Assembly (NCBI RefSeq): GCF_013294005.1
Contig: NZ_JABSNK010000003.1
Span: 186,001-250,000 of the forward strand
Direction: 5' to 3'
Length of the DNA stretch: 64,000 nucleotides
Source of the DNA: Flavobacterium gelidicaeli
GTDB lineage: Bacteria > Bacteroidota > Bacteroidia > Flavobacteriales > Flavobacteriaceae
Part shown: positions 4,868-14,329 of the stretch, piece by piece
Layout: each line of letters starts with the position of its first letter
Numbering within the stretch: position 1 is the stretch's first letter
Notes under the pieces: model-generated
The model's input: the letters and a program-made list of their open reading frames with translations, nothing else
Told to the model about the DNA's origin: nothing
Databases searched by the model: none
Position numbers and translations under genes: made by a program

Positions 4868-6352
4868 ATGAAATCAATACTTAATAATCCCTACAGAATT
4901 GCAGGAATTCTCTCCAACAGCTCTGAAAAAGATATTTTAAAACAAAAAAGTAAAATCAAGAGATTTAGTGAAGTAGGTAAAGAAATTACTTCAGAATATG
5001 ATTTTACTTTTCTTAATTCAATACAAAGAACTAATTCAGTCATTGACAAAGCCTTTTCTGATATTGAACAAAATCAGAATAAAGTAGTACATTCTTTATT
5101 TTGGTTTACAAATTTGAATACTGTTGACAATACTGCAATTCAACATTTAATAAGTGGAAATAAGAAAAAAGCTATTGAGATTTGGGATAAACTAACGGAC
5201 GAAAAAGATGTTACATCTAAAAATTTTTCTGCTTTCAACAATATTGGAACGCTTTATTTATTGGAGAATTCCAAAGAAGAAATTAAACAAGGAATTACAG
5301 CCAAAATAAAACTTATAGTATCGGAGAACTTTAAAGACTTTGTTCATACGGTTGCTGATGAAACTTTTTCAATTGATAAAAATAAACAAATTGAAATATT
5401 GATTGATGAATTGCTAACGCAATTCAAAAGCAAATATTCAACTGCTGAAACAATGGAATTGTTCAGTAATTGCGATGGGATTACACAAAAGTACATTTCT
5501 AAAAAGTTTACGGAAGAGCCTATTCATAAAATTGAAACTCAAATTGAACAATGCTCTAAAAAACGTTCAAAGGACAAAAGCAATGCTTATAAATTTGGAA
5601 CAGATTTATACAGTAAAACCAAAAGCGAATTAACACTTTTAAAATCTATTGTAGGAAACACCAACCTACAATACAAAATGTTAGCAGACAATATTGCTAA
5701 AGAATTACAACAATGTTCCATTGATTATTTTAATGAAAGTCAGGAACTTGAAAAAAGTAATGATTACCTAGAAGAAGCAATGAAACTTGCCAAATTAGCT
5801 GAAAGTGTAGCGGTAAATGAAGCAACTAAAAGCAAAGCTAAAGAAAACATCAGTACGCTTGAAGGAATGAAAGACAGAGAACTTAATCAAGCAATTGATA
5901 TTTTAAAGTCTGTAAAAACCGCGTACGAAACGAATAAAGCAAAAATAACTAAAGAGGTTTTGGAAATGCCTATGGGTTATAACCAATCTATAAATTGGAC
6001 TAAAGTAAATCAAATGATAGAACAATCATTAGATTGGAATAAGGTTGTTGAACTTATTAAAGAAACTATACCATATAGAAGTATCGAAAAAATTAAAAAT
6101 ACGGATAAACTTACCAAAATAACAGAATTTAAAACCTTGGTTGATTTCATACTTGGAAAATTGAATTATTCTCAAAAAAATCAAATCAAATATATCTGCT
6201 ATTGGAAAACAGTTTCAACAACACAAACAACCACAAGTAGACCAACAACATCAACAACAAGTAATTCAAATAATAATGAAGGTATTCCAACTTGGCTTTA
6301 TTGGGTCGGTGGTATAATACTATTAATAATTCTTTCAAAAGCGTGTAATTAA
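4868..6352 (+). CDS. J-domain-like tail-anchored protein (HPD absent), first gene of Hsp70/kinase-AAA operon
   Basis: A 494-residue protein with no close match in memory. Residues ~4-80 read like a degenerate DnaJ domain: NPYRIAGILSNSSEKDILKQ resembles the J-domain start YxxLGl..nAs..ei, and IDKAFSDIE resembles helix III. The invariant HPD between helices II and III is missing. The middle is helical and TPR-like (WDKLTDEKD, LEEAMKLAKLAE). A Thr/Ser-rich linker (~446-462) precedes one C-terminal hydrophobic segment (WLYWVGGIILLIIL), so the bulk should face the cytoplasm. It lies 12 nt before the next gene and is the likely partner of the Hsp70-like product two genes on. The co-chaperone role is inference. 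Confidence 0.75.
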   Translation: MKSILNNPYRIAGILSNSSEKDILKQKSKIKRFSEVGKEITSEYDFTFLNSIQRTNSVIDKAFSDIEQNQNKVVHSLFWFTNLNTVDNTAIQHLISGNKKKAIEIWDKLTDEKDVTSKNFSAFNNIGTLYLLENSKEEIKQGITAKIKLIVSENFKDFVHTVADETFSIDKNKQIEILIDELLTQFKSKYSTAETMELFSNCDGITQKYISKKFTEEPIHKIETQIEQCSKKRSKDKSNAYKFGTDLYSKTKSELTLLKSIVGNTNLQYKMLADNIAKELQQCSIDYFNESQELEKSNDYLEEAMKLAKLAESVAVNEATKSKAKENISTLEGMKDRELNQAIDILKSVKTAYETNKAKITKEVLEMPMGYNQSINWTKVNQMIEQSLDWNKVVELIKETIPYRSIEKIKNTDKLTKITEFKTLVDFILGKLNYSQKNQIKYICYWKTVSTTQTTTSRPTTSTTSNSNNNEGIPTWLYWVGGIILLIILSKACN

Positions 6353-6364
6353 ATAATCGAATAA

Positions 6365-7273
6365 ATGAAAAAAACTATACTCATTCCCATTCTGCTTTGT
6401 GCAATAACAATTTTTGCACAAGAAAAAAATCAAGACTTGCAAAAGCAACAGCAGGAACTTGTTTCGTTAAACCAAAAACTAAACAATCAACAAGTTATAA
6501 TCAGCCAGCAAAAAAATGAGCTGGCAAAACTTTCTGCGAAAACAGAAAATCAAAATAAACTAATCGACAGTCTGAAAATTGAAACAAATAAAAATGTTCA
6601 AAATATTCGAGCAATTGCAAATGATTTAGGTACAAAAATTCAACAAACAGAAACTACTGCAAAAGATAGCATTTCAAAGTTAGACAAAGACGTAAATACA
6701 AATCGTTTGTATTGGATTATCGCAACTTTAGTAACGTTACTTTTAGGTGGTGTTATATATTGGCTATTGGGCAAACGTATTGCAACGAGTAAAACTGATG
6801 TAGAAACCCAAATCAAAAACACAAAAAAATCTTTAGAAGAAGAAAGTATCAAATTAGATAGTAAACTTATTGAAGTTTTGGACACACAGCTAAAATTGAA
6901 ACAAGAAGAAAAACAAATTACTTCTGCTAATTCCAATATTGAAATCGACCATTCTTTGGCTTTAAAAGTAGCTGATGAAATTGTGAGAATTCATAAAAAT
7001 TTGCAACAAATGGATTCAAGCACAAAAGGATTAAAACAACTTTCTGCATCTGTACAAAGAATACAAGATAATTTCGCTTCTAACGGTTATGAATTAGTGG
7101 AAATGTTAGGGAAAGAATACAACGAAGGTATGAAAGTAATAGCGAATTTCATTCCAAGTGAAGATATTGAAACAGGAAAACAAATAATAACAAGAATTAT
7201 CAAACCACAAGTAAATTATAAAGAACAAATGATTCAATCTGCTCAAATAGAAGTAAGTATTGGAGAAAAATAA
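6365..7273 (+). CDS. Coiled-coil protein with signal peptide and one membrane span
   Basis: A 302-residue protein. Residues 1-19 look like a cleavable signal peptide ending before QEKNQ. Residues ~22-110 form a Gln/Lys-rich coiled coil in the periplasm. A single strong membrane span follows (LYWIIATLVTLLLGGVIYWLL, near 115-135). The remaining ~165 residues are helical and cytoplasmic (VADEIVRIHKNLQQMDS). Family unknown. It sits between the J-like gene (12 nt) and the Hsp70-like gene (10 nt), so it is part of the same transcript. The topology suggests a transmembrane scaffold or sensor that could link periplasmic events to the cytoplasmic chaperone and kinase parts; this is inference. Confidence 0.75.
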   Translation: MKKTILIPILLCAITIFAQEKNQDLQKQQQELVSLNQKLNNQQVIISQQKNELAKLSAKTENQNKLIDSLKIETNKNVQNIRAIANDLGTKIQQTETTAKDSISKLDKDVNTNRLYWIIATLVTLLLGGVIYWLLGKRIATSKTDVETQIKNTKKSLEEESIKLDSKLIEVLDTQLKLKQEEKQITSANSNIEIDHSLALKVADEIVRIHKNLQQMDSSTKGLKQLSASVQRIQDNFASNGYELVEMLGKEYNEGMKVIANFIPSEDIETGKQIITRIIKPQVNYKEQMIQSAQIEVSIGEK

Positions 7274-7283
7274 TATTAAAATT

Positions 7284-9800
7284 ATGGCAAGAACAAAAAT
7301 AGACTACGGTATTGACTTAGGAACAACCAATTCCGCAATTTCAAGAATTGAAAATGGAGAAGCAATCATTAAAAAAACAGACATTTTAAAAGACACTTTG
7401 CCTTCTTGTGTTTATTTTAACAAAAGAAAAGCTATACAAGTTGGAGATACTTCATACAATACTTTACGAAGAGATAAACTTGGTGCAATGAAAAATTGGG
7501 TTGATGATTCAAATGTATTCATTGAGTTCAAAAGAACAATGGGAACGGATAAAAAATATTCTAGTTCCAATTTAGGAAAAGAATTAAGTTCAGAAGAATT
7601 GTCAGCAGAGGTTTTAAAAACATTAAAATCATTTGTTGATGAAAATGTAAATGCAGTTGTGATAACCGTTCCTGCGGCTTTTGGGAATAATCAAAAAGAA
7701 GCCACTCGTGAAGCTGCAAAATTAGCTGGTTTCAATCATATAGAATTGTTACAAGAACCCGTTGCCGCTGCAATGGCTTACGGTTTAGACAGTAAAAAGA
7801 AAAATGGTTTTTGGTTGGTTTTCGATTTTGGAGGAGGAACATTTGATGCTGCTTTGCTTAAGGTCGAAGATGGTATTATGCTGGTAAAAGATACAGAAGG
7901 CGATAATTATTTAGGGGGTAAAAATTTAGATTTGGCTATCGTTGATGAAATTATTATGCCTTATATCGAACAAAATTATGCCATAGATTCTATTTTAGAA
8001 GACGATAACAAAAAACAAATTTTGCGTAATGCAATGAAATTTTACGCAGAGGAAACGAAGATTAAATTATCGTTTAACGATACGCATAATATTCTTTCTG
8101 ATTTAGGTGATATTCCCGGAGAAGACGACAACGGAGATGAATTTGAATTAGACATTACAGTTACACAAACTGATATGGAAAGAGCATTAGCACCTATTTT
8201 TCAAAAAGCTATAGATATTTCTAAAAAGTTAATTGAAAGAAATAATTTAAAAGGTTCGTCTTTGGATTCTTTGATTTTAGTAGGTGGACCAACTTTTTCG
8301 CCAATAGTTAGAAAAATGTTAGAGAAACAGATTTGCAAGCCTGATACAACTGTTGACCCAATGACTGTTGTTTCTAAAGGTGCAGCCTTGTATGCCTCTA
8401 CAATTGACATTTCGGAAGAAATAAAAGAGCAGACAAGAGATAAGTCGAAAATTCAAATTGAAATCGGACACGAAGCATCAACCGTAGAATTAGAAGAATT
8501 TGTAACGATTAAAATTTTGGCAGATAAAACAGAGGGAACAATTCCAAACAAAGTATTTGCTGAAATTACAAGAATCGACAAAGCTTGGTCAAGTGGAAAA
8601 GTTGAAATCAACGAAATTGGTGAAGTCATTGAAACACAATTAATAGAGGGCAAAACAAATAGTTTTGAAGTTATCCTATTTGATGATAAAGGAAATGTTT
8701 TAGAAAGCGAACCCAAACAATTTAATGTTATACAAGGTTCTAAAATTGGAAGTGCTACATTGGCATACAATATTGGTATTGAAATTAAAAAAAGAGAAAC
8801 AGGCAAAATAGTTTTTGAAACGCTTAAAAATTTAGAGAAAAACAAATCTATTCCTGCAGTAGGAACAAGAAATGGGCTAAAAACCCAAAAGCAAATCCGC
8901 CCAGGAATGGATACCGACTTTATTAAAATTCCAATTTATGAAGGAGAACACGAGGCAGAAGGAACTAGAGCAATTCACAACAATCACATTAAGGATATTA
9001 TCATAAGCGGAGCAGATTTACCCGCTTTATTGCCCGAAAATAGCGATGTAGATTTAACTGTAAATATTGACAGATCAGAGCAAATTACTGTAATGGCATA
9101 TTTTCCTTATTTAGATTTTTCATATGAAGCGAACGTTGAAAGAACGATTCAATCTATAGAAACAAATTGGCTTTCAAATGAAATCCGAAAAGCAAAAGGA
9201 AGTGTTGAAGAATTGAAAGACGATGGAATAAACGCTGATAAAGTTCAAAAAATTGAAAATGATATTACTGAATTAGAAAAAAAATTTGACAATAGCAAAA
9301 ACGATGTGGACGGTAAACAAGAAGTTTTAACAAATCTTCGTAAAACGCTTAAAACTATTGACGAATTAAGCGAAACTACAGAATGGCCAAAATTGGAAGA
9401 AGAGCTAAAAGAAGAATTTTACAGATTAGAGAAAGCTAATAAGGACTTAGGAAATGATAAAACAACTCAAATCGTAAATCAATTAAGAAACCAATTAGAG
9501 GAAGTGATTCAATCCCAGGATATTAAATTAGGTAAAGCGTTGGCAGAGGAAATACATTCTGTATTTTTTCAAATGACTTTAGTATATCAATTGATTAATT
9601 TCATTAGACAACACAATCAAAATTTTGGTTCATACCATTGGAAAGATAGCAATCGAGCAAGACAACTTTTAAATGACGGTTTACAACAAATCGGAGAAAA
9701 TCCAACTACTGACGATTTACATCCTATTGTTATTGATTTAGTCAATTTATTACCAGATACAGAAAAACCAAGCGGTGATGATACTGTTTTAGTCGGATAA
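7284..9800 (+). CDS. Hsp70-like ATPase with extended C-terminal region
   Basis: 838 residues from the ATG at 7284. An earlier in-frame ATG at 7260 overlaps the upstream gene and adds a non-homologous MEKNNIKI. The actin-like nucleotide-binding domain is intact: IDLGTTNS (phosphate 1), QEPVAAAMAYGL, VFDFGGGTFDAAL (phosphate 2) and LVGGPTFSP (adenosine). About 100 extra residues with beta-rich character separate it from a substrate-binding-like region, recognisable by IPIYEGEHEAEGTRA. A long helical tail follows. Housekeeping DnaK is about 640 residues, so this is a divergent paralogue. The operon has a J-like gene but no GrpE. Confidence 0.9.
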   Translation: MARTKIDYGIDLGTTNSAISRIENGEAIIKKTDILKDTLPSCVYFNKRKAIQVGDTSYNTLRRDKLGAMKNWVDDSNVFIEFKRTMGTDKKYSSSNLGKELSSEELSAEVLKTLKSFVDENVNAVVITVPAAFGNNQKEATREAAKLAGFNHIELLQEPVAAAMAYGLDSKKKNGFWLVFDFGGGTFDAALLKVEDGIMLVKDTEGDNYLGGKNLDLAIVDEIIMPYIEQNYAIDSILEDDNKKQILRNAMKFYAEETKIKLSFNDTHNILSDLGDIPGEDDNGDEFELDITVTQTDMERALAPIFQKAIDISKKLIERNNLKGSSLDSLILVGGPTFSPIVRKMLEKQICKPDTTVDPMTVVSKGAALYASTIDISEEIKEQTRDKSKIQIEIGHEASTVELEEFVTIKILADKTEGTIPNKVFAEITRIDKAWSSGKVEINEIGEVIETQLIEGKTNSFEVILFDDKGNVLESEPKQFNVIQGSKIGSATLAYNIGIEIKKRETGKIVFETLKNLEKNKSIPAVGTRNGLKTQKQIRPGMDTDFIKIPIYEGEHEAEGTRAIHNNHIKDIIISGADLPALLPENSDVDLTVNIDRSEQITVMAYFPYLDFSYEANVERTIQSIETNWLSNEIRKAKGSVEELKDDGINADKVQKIENDITELEKKFDNSKNDVDGKQEVLTNLRKTLKTIDELSETTEWPKLEEELKEEFYRLEKANKDLGNDKTTQIVNQLRNQLEEVIQSQDIKLGKALAEEIHSVFFQMTLVYQLINFIRQHNQNFGSYHWKDSNRARQLLNDGLQQIGENPTTDDLHPIVIDLVNLLPDTEKPSGDDTVLVG

Positions 9801-9812
9801 AAATCAAAAACT

Positions 9813-10493
9813 ATGAAAATAAAAATAATTTCACTTTCGCTTTTAACTATAATGCTTTTAACCTCTTGTGAATCAGAACAAGCGAGAAAAGATCGATTGG
9901 CTACCGAAGAGCGCCAACAAATCGAATTAGAACATCAATTAGCTGAGAGAAATAAAGCGGAATCGATCCGATTGGAACAAGTTCGTGTAGAGCAAGAAAA
10001 AAAATCAGAAGTGGAGCGGCTCGAAAGAGAAATTATATTGGAAAAAGAACGCAAAGAAAAAGAAATCTATAACAAGTATATATCTAATTCTTTGCATACA
10101 GGTTCAACACCTTATTCAATATATTATGGCAAAAACTCATCTTGTAGTGATAATGGCTGTTCGCAAATAAAAGTAAGAACAAGTAATGCAGACGTTTTAG
10201 TAACTATAAAAAATAATGATAAAGTTGTAAGTCACTCATTTATTCAGGCAGGTGATAGTTATACATTTTCTTTCCCTAATGGCACTTACCAAGCATTTTT
10301 CTACTATGGAAAAGGATGGAATCCCGAAAAAGAAATGAAAAATGGAGCAATGAATGGAGGATTTATTTCCAGTGAGGAATTTGGAAAGGACGAACCTCAA
10401 TACTTATTTAACAATGTTTTACGATATGAACTAATACTGCAACAAAACGGAAACTTTAGTACAAGTCCAAGTAATGCTGAAGAAGCTTTATAG
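9813..10493 (+). CDS. Lipoprotein with charged coiled coil and C-terminal beta domain
   Basis: A 226-residue protein. MKIKIISLSLLTIMLLTSC is a lipoprotein signal with the lipobox cysteine at residue 19. Residues ~22-95 are a highly charged Glu/Arg/Lys coiled coil. Residues ~100-226 hold a compact beta-rich domain with two close cysteines (SSCSDNGC) and the run FPNGTYQAFFYYGKGWNPEK. I recall similar domains in other Bacteroidetes lipoproteins, all of unknown function. The product should be anchored to a membrane on the periplasmic side. It lies 12 nt after the Hsp70-like gene, so it is probably a non-cytoplasmic member of the same system. Confidence 0.75.
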   Translation: MKIKIISLSLLTIMLLTSCESEQARKDRLATEERQQIELEHQLAERNKAESIRLEQVRVEQEKKSEVERLEREIILEKERKEKEIYNKYISNSLHTGSTPYSIYYGKNSSCSDNGCSQIKVRTSNADVLVTIKNNDKVVSHSFIQAGDSYTFSFPNGTYQAFFYYGKGWNPEKEMKNGAMNGGFISSEEFGKDEPQYLFNNVLRYELILQQNGNFSTSPSNAEEAL

Positions 10494-10494
10494 A

Positions 10495-10788
10495 ATGGAT
10501 AAAATCAGCAAAATTGCTTTAGAATCGCTACTTTTCCTCTGCATTTTAGATATGCCTTATGGTTATTTCTAATTGGTTAGGTTTGCGGCTTTTGTTGGCT
10601 TTGGAATTTTAACTTACCATGAAAATCAACAAAGAAAACAAATCGAGTTAATAATTTTCGGAGCTATGGCATTGTTGTATCAACCGTTTTTAAAAATTAT
10701 TTTAAGGCGGGAGTTGTGGAATAATATAGATGAGATTATTGAAGTAGGATTAATGGTTAGGCTTTTAAAGAAACAAAATGATGAATAA
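10495..10788 (+). pseudogene. DUF6804-like small membrane protein interrupted by an in-frame TAA
   Basis: From ATG 10495 the frame reads MDKISKIALESLLFLCILDMPYGYF, meets TAA at 10570-10572, then continues in the same frame as LVRFAAFVGFGILTYHENQQ through LYQPFLKIILRRELWN to a stop at 10788. Both halves match what I recall of the DUF6804 family, where MPYGYYQLVRF is continuous; the stop would sit where Gln is expected, so CAA to TAA is the simplest explanation. No frameshift is involved. Intact, it would be a ~97-residue protein with three to four membrane spans. It overlaps the next gene's start by 11 nt. A sequencing error or reinitiation at the TTG 10573 are alternatives. Confidence 0.7.
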
Positions 10789-12538
10789 ATCTATATTAAC
10801 AAAAGGTCAAATTATTGACGGCAAATATTCGGTTAGCTTCTTTATGAAAAAAGGAAGCTATGCCGAAACTTATCGTGTACAAAATGAAACAAAAGAAATC
10901 AAATTTCTAAAACTTTTTGACTTCGCCAAACTGCATAGAACACAATTTACAGAAAGCGGAGAAATTTTAGAAATTGAAATGCTTAAACAAATCAAACATT
11001 CGAATTTAGTTAAGTACAACGATAGTGGAGATGTCGTAATTGACAACCAAAAATTGGCCTATGTGGTTTTAGATTTTGTAAGTGGCGAAACTCTAGCTGA
11101 AAAAATGAAACGTGAAAACACCTTGAATTTATATGAAGCAAAAAGTATCATTTTGAGTGTTTTAAATGGTTTGAATTATTTACACAACAAGCAAATCATT
11201 CATAATGACATTACGAATCAAAATATAATGTTAGATTTATCTGGGAAAGTTAATATTGCGAAAATCATAGATTTTGGATATGCTCGTTTTTTAAAACAAT
11301 CCAATAAAGATTTTTTGAAAGAGGGTATAAATTTGTTTTATACAGCGAATGAAACTTTCAATAAAGTCTTTTCATGCCAAAGCGATGTTTATTCTGTGGG
11401 AGCATTGTATTATCATTTACTTACAGGCCTACCACCTTATTTTATAGAAATATCAAAATATAAATCTGGCAGAATACAATTAGAAGAAGTTATCTTAGAC
11501 GAAAGAAAAAAGTCTTTAAAATTTTCTGATAAAATAGATGAGCAAACACAAAGTATAATCCGAAAAGCATTACAACCAAAAGCAGAAAACCGTTTTAAAT
11601 CTGTAAAAGAATTTATTCAAACATTAAACGGAGAATTAGAGGTTGAACTTTCAATTCCTGAAGAAAAGGTTAATAAAGTTCAATCCAAAGATAATAAGAA
11701 AGGGAAAGGATTTACTTCCATTGCAGGAATGCAAGAATTAAAAAATACCATTCAATTAGATGTTATTGATGCTCTAAACCAAAAAGAACGCTATGCAGAA
11801 TATGGTTTAACAATTCCAAACGGAATGTTGCTTTATGGTCCGCCAGGATGTGGGAAAACATTCTTTGCAGAGAAAATGGCAGAAGAAATTGGATTTAATT
11901 TTTATCAGATAAAACCATCTGACATTCAAAGTAAATTTGTAAATGCTTCGCAGGAAAATATCAAAAATTTGTTTGGTGAAGCAAAACAAAACGCACCAAG
12001 TATAATTTTCATAGACGAATTAGACGCACTTGTTCCAAATAGAGATACAGCTAACATTAGCCATATGAACACAAGTGTTGTCAATGAATTTTTAGCACAA
12101 ATGAATAATTGTGGAGATGACGGTATTTTTATAATCGGTGCTACAAATAGACCAAATGCTATTGACCCAGCAATTTTACGTTCAGGAAGAGTAGATAAAC
12201 ATATTTATTTGCCACCGCCTGACTTTGAAGCCCGAAAATTGATTTTTCAATTGTACTTAAAAAAGCGACCAACAGAAATTGGTCTGAATTATGAAGAATT
12301 AGCCATGGCAACAGAAAACTATGTTTCAAGCGACATTAAATTTTTATGTGATGAAGCTTCAAGAAAAGCATTAAAAGACAGTTTAAGAATTACAAAATCA
12401 ATTGTATTGGAAACAATCAGAAGCAACAAACCATCAATTTCTTTGCAGGAGTTAAACAGCTACCTAGTAATCAAAGCTAAAATGGAAGGGGAGAACAACA
12501 ACACTAACGACAAATCAAGTATTGGATTTAGGACATAA
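10778..12538 (+). CDS. Fused Ser/Thr protein kinase and AAA+ ATPase
   Basis: A 586-residue protein. Residues ~8-290 are a eukaryotic-type kinase domain: a loop GSYAETY, catalytic loop HNDITNQN (Asn in place of the Arg of HRD, catalytic Asp and Asn kept), IIDFGYA (DFG), and SDVYSVGALYYHLLTGLPPY. Residues ~300-586 are an AAA+ domain of the FtsH/Cdc48 type: GPPGCGKT (Walker A), SIIFIDELDAL (Walker B), IIGATNRP (sensor 1), LRSGRVD (arginine finger) and a helical lid. There is no signal peptide or membrane span. The start overlaps the preceding gene by 11 nt; ATG 10781 is an alternative. It closes the Hsp70-like operon. It probably remodels a protein substrate under kinase control, which is inference. 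Confidence 0.9.
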   Translation: MMNKSILTKGQIIDGKYSVSFFMKKGSYAETYRVQNETKEIKFLKLFDFAKLHRTQFTESGEILEIEMLKQIKHSNLVKYNDSGDVVIDNQKLAYVVLDFVSGETLAEKMKRENTLNLYEAKSIILSVLNGLNYLHNKQIIHNDITNQNIMLDLSGKVNIAKIIDFGYARFLKQSNKDFLKEGINLFYTANETFNKVFSCQSDVYSVGALYYHLLTGLPPYFIEISKYKSGRIQLEEVILDERKKSLKFSDKIDEQTQSIIRKALQPKAENRFKSVKEFIQTLNGELEVELSIPEEKVNKVQSKDNKKGKGFTSIAGMQELKNTIQLDVIDALNQKERYAEYGLTIPNGMLLYGPPGCGKTFFAEKMAEEIGFNFYQIKPSDIQSKFVNASQENIKNLFGEAKQNAPSIIFIDELDALVPNRDTANISHMNTSVVNEFLAQMNNCGDDGIFIIGATNRPNAIDPAILRSGRVDKHIYLPPPDFEARKLIFQLYLKKRPTEIGLNYEELAMATENYVSSDIKFLCDEASRKALKDSLRITKSIVLETIRSNKPSISLQELNSYLVIKAKMEGENNNTNDKSSIGFRT

Positions 12539-12720
12539 AAACTAACCACAAAATGTAAAATTGCAATAAGAGCTTACTCTTCTAAAGTATCAAAGACCCA
12601 AATGAAAAGCTTAATAACTTAACAAGGATAAGAATGAATGTATAACAAGGTTTTGCCATATTTGGAATTTTAGTAGCTTTAATGTTTCAAAGTGTATTTT
12701 TGTTTAGCAAAAAACAATCG

Positions 12721-12752
12721 GTCTCAAAACTCACAAGTATAAAGCGTGAGAC
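12721..12752. repeat. GTCTCA / TGAGAC inverted repeat downstream of the kinase-AAA gene
   Basis: GTCTCA (12721-12726) and TGAGAC (12747-12752) form a 6-bp stem with a 20-nt loop, without a following T-run on the plus strand. Upstream, the run GTATAACAAGGTTTTGCC near 12640 resembles the gene-end tails of other orphan genes in this window. The gap 12539-12783 contains no gene I can support. Confidence 0.25.
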
Positions 12753-12783
12753 GATACAGTAATAATTTAAAAACCAACTAAAT

Positions 12784-13629
12784 ATGTATATTTCGGGAAT
12801 TCCTGACGAAATTTTTAAATATAATAATTCTGAATCAGATAAATTATCTGGCTTAACTCCAAATCAAACTCATGAATTAATTTATAATCCGCTGGGTGAA
12901 AATTCTTGTATTAAGTTTAGTAGTACAATTAATTCTGAGATACTTGATGAAATTCCTTTTTTTAGAATTTCAGAAGAGTTACTGAAAATTATAAAACGAG
13001 ATGGATTTATAAAACTCACGCCACTAGGGGCACTTCCAAAAAAAATACTTATTGAATTATATGATTTTAGATTTATTGTTGACGAACACATCGAATCTGG
13101 AATTAACAAACTTTATAGAGAAGACGTATGTGTTCCAATAAAGACCGCTAGAATTGTATGTGAATCGACAAATCTTGTCAAAAAGACTAAGGGGAAATTA
13201 TTGCTTACAAAAAATGGCGAAAGATGTTTAAAAAACGAAAATCGTGTTGAACTTTTTAAAATAATTTTTTTGATTTTTTCAGAAAAATTTAATTGGGCTT
13301 ACAACGACGGTTACACAAAAGAACCAGTTGGACAATATGGCTATTTATTTTCAATTTACTTATTGAAAAAATTTGGCGACAAAGAAAACTCAACTAACTA
13401 TTTTGCTGAAAAGTACCTACAAGTTTTTGAAAAGTTCATCACCTATTTTAATGAAGACTATTCGACTCCCGAGAAACTATTCAATAGCTGTTACACTTTA
13501 AGAACTTTTGAAAGATTTACCGAATGGTTTGGATTAACAAAGTTAAGCGGAAAGAATAGCTATTTTGATCTTGAAAATGCTAAAATTACTAAAACAATAT
13601 TATTTGAAAAGATATTTATTCTTGAATAA
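12784..13629 (+). CDS. Hypothetical protein, 281 aa
   Basis: The family is not firmly recognised. The product is soluble, with no signal peptide or membrane span. The N-terminal third has GLTPNQTHELIYNPLG followed by PFFRISEELLKIIK and KLTPLGALPKKI. I have seen that word pattern in uncharacterised bacterial proteins of similar size, some fused to SEC-C motifs. No SEC-C zinc motif or catalytic motif is visible here. The C-terminal half is helical and rich in Phe, Tyr and Lys. It stands alone in AT-rich DNA, 245 nt after the kinase-AAA gene and 97 nt before a small membrane-protein gene, so it is probably accessory. Confidence 0.65.
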   Translation: MYISGIPDEIFKYNNSESDKLSGLTPNQTHELIYNPLGENSCIKFSSTINSEILDEIPFFRISEELLKIIKRDGFIKLTPLGALPKKILIELYDFRFIVDEHIESGINKLYREDVCVPIKTARIVCESTNLVKKTKGKLLLTKNGERCLKNENRVELFKIIFLIFSEKFNWAYNDGYTKEPVGQYGYLFSIYLLKKFGDKENSTNYFAEKYLQVFEKFITYFNEDYSTPEKLFNSCYTLRTFERFTEWFGLTKLSGKNSYFDLENAKITKTILFEKIFILE

Positions 13630-13726
13630 AAATTACTAATGCCAACACTTTTTTCTCTAAGTTAATGTGATCACCTAATTGAGATGGTTACTATAAGAAG
13701 AATTAAATAGTTAAAAGAATATAAAA

Positions 13727-14110
13727 ATGCAGAAATTACTAACGGTAATGGCAATTGTAAATACGGTTATTATTGCACTTTTTTCATATTTAACGGTTTT
13801 CATGTCTAATAATCAAATAGGTGCAACTGAAAAATTTGCAGGAGCAGTTATTTTAAGTTGTCTTTTAGGAAGTGTAGTTACTAAAATCATAAAACAAAAA
13901 TTTTGGATTATTATACTGTCCTTACTATTCGATTTTATACTAATTACATTTTTATACAACATAACAGACTATAGTTCAATTTATGAATTTATTCAAAGCT
14001 TGTTTAATATAGCAACACATGTAGTACTTTTTATATATTTATATTTAATTTTTTACTACGTTTATAAGTTTAAACAAATACTTAAAAAACGAACCAATTA
14101 CCTAGTTTAA
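13727..14110 (+). CDS. Small membrane protein, 127 aa
   Basis: Almost entirely hydrophobic, with about four membrane spans (LTVMAIVNTVIIALFSYL; FAGAVILSCLLGSVV; FWIIILSLLFDFILITFL; IATHVVLFIYLYLIFYYVY) and a basic C-terminal tail (KFKQILKKR). I recognise no family. It is 15 nt upstream of another small membrane gene at 14126, so the two are likely co-transcribed. No charged residue inside a span suggests transport or catalysis. Confidence 0.6.
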   Translation: MQKLLTVMAIVNTVIIALFSYLTVFMSNNQIGATEKFAGAVILSCLLGSVVTKIIKQKFWIIILSLLFDFILITFLYNITDYSSIYEFIQSLFNIATHVVLFIYLYLIFYYVYKFKQILKKRTNYLV

Positions 14111-14125
14111 AAAAACGAACTAATT

Positions 14126-14329
14126 ATGAAGATGTCCAAAAATGTTTATTTAGGCTTAGCCATATTATTTTTAATCTCTTTTATCTATTCCTTATTTGAT
14201 ACAAGAACTACCCACGAACTATTGTTTTGGGAAGTAAATATTTGGGTATATCGTTTTTTTCGCTTGGCTGTTGCTGTATTATTTATGAAAACGTATTTGG
14301 ACAAGAGAAAAGACGAGAATGTAAACTAG
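14126..14329 (+). CDS. Small membrane protein, 67 aa
   Basis: A 67-residue protein with two predicted membrane spans (VYLGLAILFLISFIYSLF and FFRLAVAVLFMKTYL) and a hydrophilic, charged end (DKRKDENVN). No family is recognised. It follows the 127-residue membrane gene by 15 nt. The start ATG 14126 is preceded by AAACGAACTAATT, a normal A-rich leader for this genome; the second ATG (14132) is an alternative. Confidence 0.55.
   Translation: MKMSKNVYLGLAILFLISFIYSLFDTRTTHELLFWEVNIWVYRFFRLAVAVLFMKTYLDKRKDENVN

Follow-up and report, generated by a model that had tools for sequence, protein, structure and literature searches.

The stretch analysed here, 64,000 nucleotides of the Flavobacterium gelidicaeli contig NZ_JABSNK010000003.1 (positions 186,001 to 250,000; hereafter the window), carries six loci at positions 4868-12538, all on the + strand, which are separated by 12, 10, 12 and 1 nt, except for one pair that overlaps by 11 nt. 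The six-gene same-strand operon claimed in a first-pass annotation of the window was reproduced in coordinates, strand, gaps and overlap. In order, it encodes a J-like protein of 494 aa (4868..6352), consisting of an N-terminal J-like region devoid of the HPD motif, a helical solenoid and a C-terminal transmembrane tail; a membrane-spanning coiled-coil protein of 302 aa (6365..7273) with a GrpE-like domain at residues 186-302 (6920..7270); an Hsp70-like ATPase of 838 aa (7284..9800), composed of a nucleotide-binding domain (NBD), an extra beta region, a substrate-binding beta domain and a long helical lid; a predicted lipoprotein of 226 aa (9813..10493), whose lipobox was recognized by eye; a DUF6804-like small membrane protein, whose gene (10495..10788) is interrupted by a single in-frame stop following residue 25; and a 586-aa protein in which a kinase-like domain is joined to a Cdc48/FtsH-type AAA+ domain (10778..12538).

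New in our analysis is that the C-terminal domain of the coiled-coil membrane protein is, as judged by profile alignment, GrpE-like. Of the 30 GrpE loci retrieved, 28 were used to build a GrpE profile, which was compared by hhalign with column permutations as the control. The C-terminal domain of the coiled-coil family, which is conserved in the alignment, matched this profile with a probability of 85 (E 5.8e-6), at a score of 39.2 compared to 19.8 for the best of 60 permutations. With two viral relatives added, which are soluble proteins of 128 and 129 aa, the match had a probability of 96 (E 2.7e-9) and a score of 58.2 (<=20.2 in 100 permutations), and the alignment spanned 95 columns, reaching the common C-terminus; the viral members on their own (n=4) yielded a probability of 96.6. 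The start of the window protein resembles a signal sequence by eye, and a single hydrophobic segment occupies residues 114-137. The earlier description as a coiled-coil bitopic membrane protein was right about the membrane span but incomplete, as the GrpE-like domain had been missed. With this domain, the operon possesses a dedicated trio of Hsp70-like, J-like and GrpE-like proteins together with an AAA+ motor.

The family of the J-like protein, when compared with a J-domain profile, reached a score of 19.0, while 40 permutations did not exceed 12.4 and other stretches of the protein gave no more than 15.1. The viral members (n=3) aligned over 63 columns with a probability of 78 and an E-value of 1.8e-5 (score 30.5; best permutation 16.5). 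A structure model of the window protein (predicted local distance difference test, pLDDT, 81) depicts the part beyond the N-terminal region as a helical solenoid, for which no clear relative was found in the PDB, and a single hydrophobic segment is located at residues 471-493. By eye, the tail varies among relatives: the window protein and several others end in a membrane helix, others in a tail of the type named CFI-box in a database record, and still others in a longer tail with charged helices at its end. The membrane linkage of the machinery proposed from the first reading of the DNA is supported by these sequences. At one related locus, L019, the J-like gene is split into three open reading frames (ORFs; 7583-9074), and a 399-aa ORF (12631-13830) is inserted before the kinase-AAA+ gene.

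The Hsp70-like protein matches Pfam HSP70 (PF00012) over residues 9-374, its NBD, with an E-value of 1e-61 (209 bits; cut-off 20.6); the Hsp70 motifs are kept and a substrate-binding domain follows. It does not reach the cut-off of the DnaK equivalog TIGR02350 (220 bits vs 822.55). Between the NBD and the substrate-binding domain, the secondary structure of the model places the extra beta region, at residues 390-492 or thereabouts (8451..8759; range set by eye), with low pLDDT at its start. At loci L014 and L016, the Hsp70 proteins are 56-57% identical to that of the window, while the kinase-AAA+ proteins are more than 80% identical block by block, which suggests recombination inside the operon.

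For the 586-aa protein, Pfam recognizes both Pkinase (PF00069; E 7.5e-38) and AAA (PF00004; E 1.2e-38), together with AAA_lid_3, and the best NCBIfam matches are CDC48 and FtsH. The source genome contains one full-length kinase-AAA+ match, and two further matches hit the AAA part. Motif residues were counted in 22 diverse members and in the 120 close matches listed, among which are the window protein and two more of those diverse members. The residues that we take to be the Walker A Lys, the Walker B Glu and the two arginines of the second region of homology are invariant in both sets (22/22 and 120/120), and all 120 close matches listed and 21 of the 22 diverse members retain the presumed pore-loop aromatic.

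The remaining two genes belong to a more variable set of accessories. Counting same-strand ORFs >240 nt near the core, DUF6804-like genes accompany 13 of 20 related loci, TerB-like genes 12 and lipoprotein genes 7; an SH3-domain accessory protein was also found among these loci. The family of the interrupted fifth gene is known from its relative at L001 (DUF6804, E 1.7e-37), and the name TerB rests on the L021 protein (26.4 bits at a cut-off of 24.4; only 16.5 for that of L005). The C-terminal domain of the lipoprotein is fused to J-like proteins at L013 (E 3e-15) and at L162 (E 2e-26, with the L010 copy as query), and thus the lipoprotein is tied to the machine. At L017, a gene for a KilA-N domain protein (13229-14059) lies within the operon, with the lipoprotein and kinase-AAA+ genes on either side.

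The 20 loci were obtained by an Hsp70 search of bacterial genome contigs, and in 17 of them the J-like, coiled-coil, Hsp70 and kinase-AAA+ genes follow each other in this order on one strand. The exceptions are L008 and L015, which start inside the operon at contig ends, and L019 with its J-like gene in pieces. The same four-gene core resides on a plasmid of Haliscomenobacter hydrossis. In a survey of 395 genomes from the phylum, in which only the two to three best candidates per genome were scored, Hsp70 orthologues (E <=1e-120) occurred in six genomes and kinase-AAA+ matches (E <=1e-60) in 11, of which six were full length and five covered the AAA part only. Hsp70 and full-length kinase-AAA+ proteins were found in the identical six genomes, with both genes on one contig each time. 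The J-like N-terminus was detected in seven genomes: in those six it lies on the same contigs as the other two genes, and the seventh is G413, where the contig breaks off within the J-like gene; 12 more matches to the J-like profile span just its C-terminal part. Among the six contigs besides the window, four (L094-L097) retain the core order, L099 is cut, and L098 has the order Hsp70, kinase-AAA+, TerB-like and J-like, with the contig ending just before Hsp70. The recurrence of the four-gene core elsewhere thus exceeds what chance grouping would give. The first-pass annotation had proposed a single operon; that its genes form one conserved unit is supported by the order in 17 of 20 loci and by the co-occurrence, and the Hsp70-like and kinase-AAA+ genes, rather than turning up independently in unrelated contexts, shared the same genomes and contigs.

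The distribution of the unit is patchy. The J-like N-terminus was found in none of 36 congeners (G022 shows a tail match only), while one congener in the 395-genome draw, G199, does have it. The gene adjoining the operon, which we take to be porX-like, is present in every one of the 61 genomes searched in the genus, the source genome counted, and no part of 4868-12538 was found in the regions around this gene in eight congeners. Several copies have neighbours associated with mobility or conflict, among them integrase, BREX, type I restriction-modification and NACHT genes: L094 adjoins a tyrosine recombinase and, on the other side, genes that are phage-like by eye; L095 is followed by HsdM; L097 lies beside a NACHT protein; and a SIR2 gene is found close to L021 along with brxL and pglZ. 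The neighbours of the window copy include one ORF resembling a GajB-type UvrD helicase and another resembling the N-terminus of a type I restriction R protein. Downstream of the operon, an ORF of 281 aa (12784-13629) was matched by neither Pfam nor PADLOC nor NCBIfam models. A block between ORFs (14124-14320) is about 75% conserved in three of the eight congener regions at a varying distance from the porX-like gene; it is present in a single copy in the source genome and had no Rfam or tRNA match.

All four parts were also found on four IMG/VR contigs (L162/L242, L163/L243, L244 and L245), three of which keep the order. In L162 the cassette is located between the gene of a large terminase subunit, which is 34% identical to an annotated terminase at 98% coverage, and a portal gene sharing 25% identity with annotated portals, and in L245 a baseplate-like gene is close to it. 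On L244 (1740-9109) a GrpE-like gene whose product has an N-terminal hydrophobic stretch is followed by Hsp70, J-like, two ORFs, a 359-aa AAA+ protein and a DUF6804-like gene. In addition, many viral contigs (L164-L241) carry Hsp70 NBD homologues of 32-37% identity, with no J-like or GrpE-like profile match on the stretch examined.

Taken together, the mobile Hsp70/J-like/GrpE-like set and the kinase-AAA+ protein are predicted to form one machine in which clients would pass from Hsp70 to the AAA+ ring, probably in defence against phages or other mobile elements, a reading to which we assign a probability of about 0.5. It is built on the resemblances of the partners, the conserved order, the intact AAA+ and Hsp70 motifs and the patchy and mobile distribution, all of which are read directly from the sequences. 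Anchored in the membrane through its swappable tail, the J-like protein would catch a client or signal a disturbed envelope and hand the client to the Hsp70-like protein. The GrpE-like domain, which is predicted to connect with a coiled coil in the periplasm across the inner membrane, might then set off the exchange of nucleotide and the release at the membrane, and the AAA+ ring would thread the client, with the kinase-like domain serving as a gate or docking part. The variable parts, i.e. the lipoprotein domain and the TerB-like and DUF6804-like proteins, may tune sensing or output. It might further be speculated, more tentatively, that the operon represents a class of its own among mobile immune machines, namely a private chaperone set whose exchange factor is wired through the membrane to a periplasmic sensor and in which phage or plasmid proteins are the clients fed to the AAA+ unfoldase.

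Several observations weigh against this interpretation. The match of the window's J-like family to the J domain is weak, covering 23 columns (helices I and II) at an hhalign probability of 8, and with 285 rows (204 distinct N-termini) it is still weak (probability 34, E 4.2e-4; score 23.6 vs 16.8 permuted, n=100). The HPD motif, which J proteins require to stimulate Hsp70, occurs in none of the 285 rows or 204 distinct N-termini. Pfam DnaJ (PF00226) was not matched by the window protein up to an E-value of 0.1, nor was DnaJ among the best 25 of 75 families for 44 J-like members. Of the earlier J-like assignment, a distant resemblance to the J domain stands, although HPD is absent. Likewise, Pfam GrpE (PF01025) was not matched up to an E-value of 0.1 by the window protein or by the L162 and L163 members; since single members score under Pfam's GrpE model, we use the label GrpE-like. 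On the viral contigs, the J-like and GrpE-like matches of L163 and L245 reach only 24-30 bits and the GrpE-like match of L244 31, and the genes carried there could serve the phage instead of the host. The comparison of flanks is crude (100 PADLOC families for 144 flanking ORFs vs 35 for 126 control ORFs), and the window copy itself sits amid genes that mostly look like ordinary chromosomal ones (30 ORFs, judged from the best 25 families in each scan). The likeness to known defence proteins is confined to single parts: in PADLOC and NCBIfam models, the AAA domain resembles IetA and the kinase domain PD-T4-6, and the IteA model, which has a cut-off of 510, was matched at 106.6 bits. Finally, the HRD Asp of the kinase is kept in 13 of the 22 diverse members and replaced in nine, and phosphorylation therefore cannot be general. 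Across relatives, the AAA+ catalytic residues are, on these alignments, constant while the kinase active site varies.

This last contrast also bears on the idea of a signalling module that has the kinase as its output and uses Hsp70 and the GrpE-like part only for sensing misfolded protein. The HRD Asp is present in the window protein and in 118 of the 120 close matches listed, and the Lys and the DFG Asp in all 120, as such a module would have it. The replacements among the diverse members set against the invariant AAA+ residues, and the viral AAA+ proteins, of which that of L244 is too short at 359 aa for a kinase domain and those of L163 and L245 are without kinase motifs by eye, make it very improbable. 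The main rival is an accessory envelope-stress chaperone, in which the same machine would repair or clear damaged membrane-proximal proteins and spread by its benefit in harsh habitats. The chaperone and unfoldase parts are indeed the constant core, the envelope is suggested by the membrane span in the GrpE-like protein as well as by the lipoprotein and the SH3-domain accessory, and the ordinary surroundings of the window copy would fit. However, the very patchy occurrence (6/395 genomes), the copies near recombinase and restriction genes and on viral contigs, and the J-like tails and accessory genes that differ among loci, as in conflict systems, speak against it, and we regard it as unlikely, if still to be taken seriously. 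Defence or conflict is placed first because of patchiness, carriage on mobile DNA and neighbours. The cassette might instead be a phage-borne helper which folds or disassembles virus particles or takes over host proteins, the bacterial copies being prophage remnants or captures. All four parts on four IMG/VR contigs, and the terminase, portal and baseplate-like genes beside two of the cassettes, would agree with this; the window J-like protein, by contrast, had no match in 50,697 annotated phage records, the 20 loci derive from bacterial genome assemblies, and several copies adjoin restriction or NACHT genes, so that we consider such a role improbable.

The KJE-ClpB bichaperone combines DnaK, DnaJ and GrpE with ClpB. 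Similarly, the operon has Hsp70, J-like and GrpE-like partners and an AAA+ motor that could receive clients; its AAA+ protein, however, is of the Cdc48/FtsH type with a kinase-like domain and not ClpB, its J-like part is without HPD, its GrpE-like part is membrane-anchored, and the set is mobile and patchy. The Hsp70/GrpE theme of the GAP1-N2 GTPase conflict systems (Kaur et al. 2020, PMC7159879) shares Hsp70 and GrpE genes, a DnaJ- or TPR-fused protein, a membrane link and a proposed conflict role, but is centred on GTPases and FNIII proteins and occurs chiefly in actinobacteria and firmicutes, whereas the operon, studied here in Bacteroidota, has the kinase-AAA+ protein and no GTPase/FNIII. 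CoCoNuT type IV restriction systems have an McrB-type GTPase and McrC and resemble the operon in that their defence superoperons contain coiled coils as well as Hsp70-like units; the motifs of these Hsp70 units are reported to be degenerate (PMC11090510), while those of the operon are kept and McrB-type GTPase and McrC are missing. Neither TRAFAC GTPase and FNIII nor McrB-type GTPase and McrC had a Pfam match in the five intact operon proteins (for the kinase-AAA+ protein, among the best 25 of 27 families), the interrupted fifth gene being excluded. For bNACHT25, it is reported that a J protein connects a phage protein to the immune response via the housekeeping DnaJ (PMC12169576), while the operon carries a dedicated set. 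No published description of this gene composition was found in a search outside which most subscription literature lay.

Hsp70 machines are usually regarded as housekeeping. If the proposed reading is true, bacteria and their mobile elements would be using the chaperone cycle as a weapon or a sensor, since a complete set, with an exchange factor of GrpE-like type tethered to the membrane and an AAA+ motor of its own, is found on a plasmid, on viral contigs and in islands. Two features of the operon, the J-like domain that has no HPD and the Hsp70 with an extra domain in the linker region, can moreover be put to the test, so that it bears directly on Hsp70 switching.

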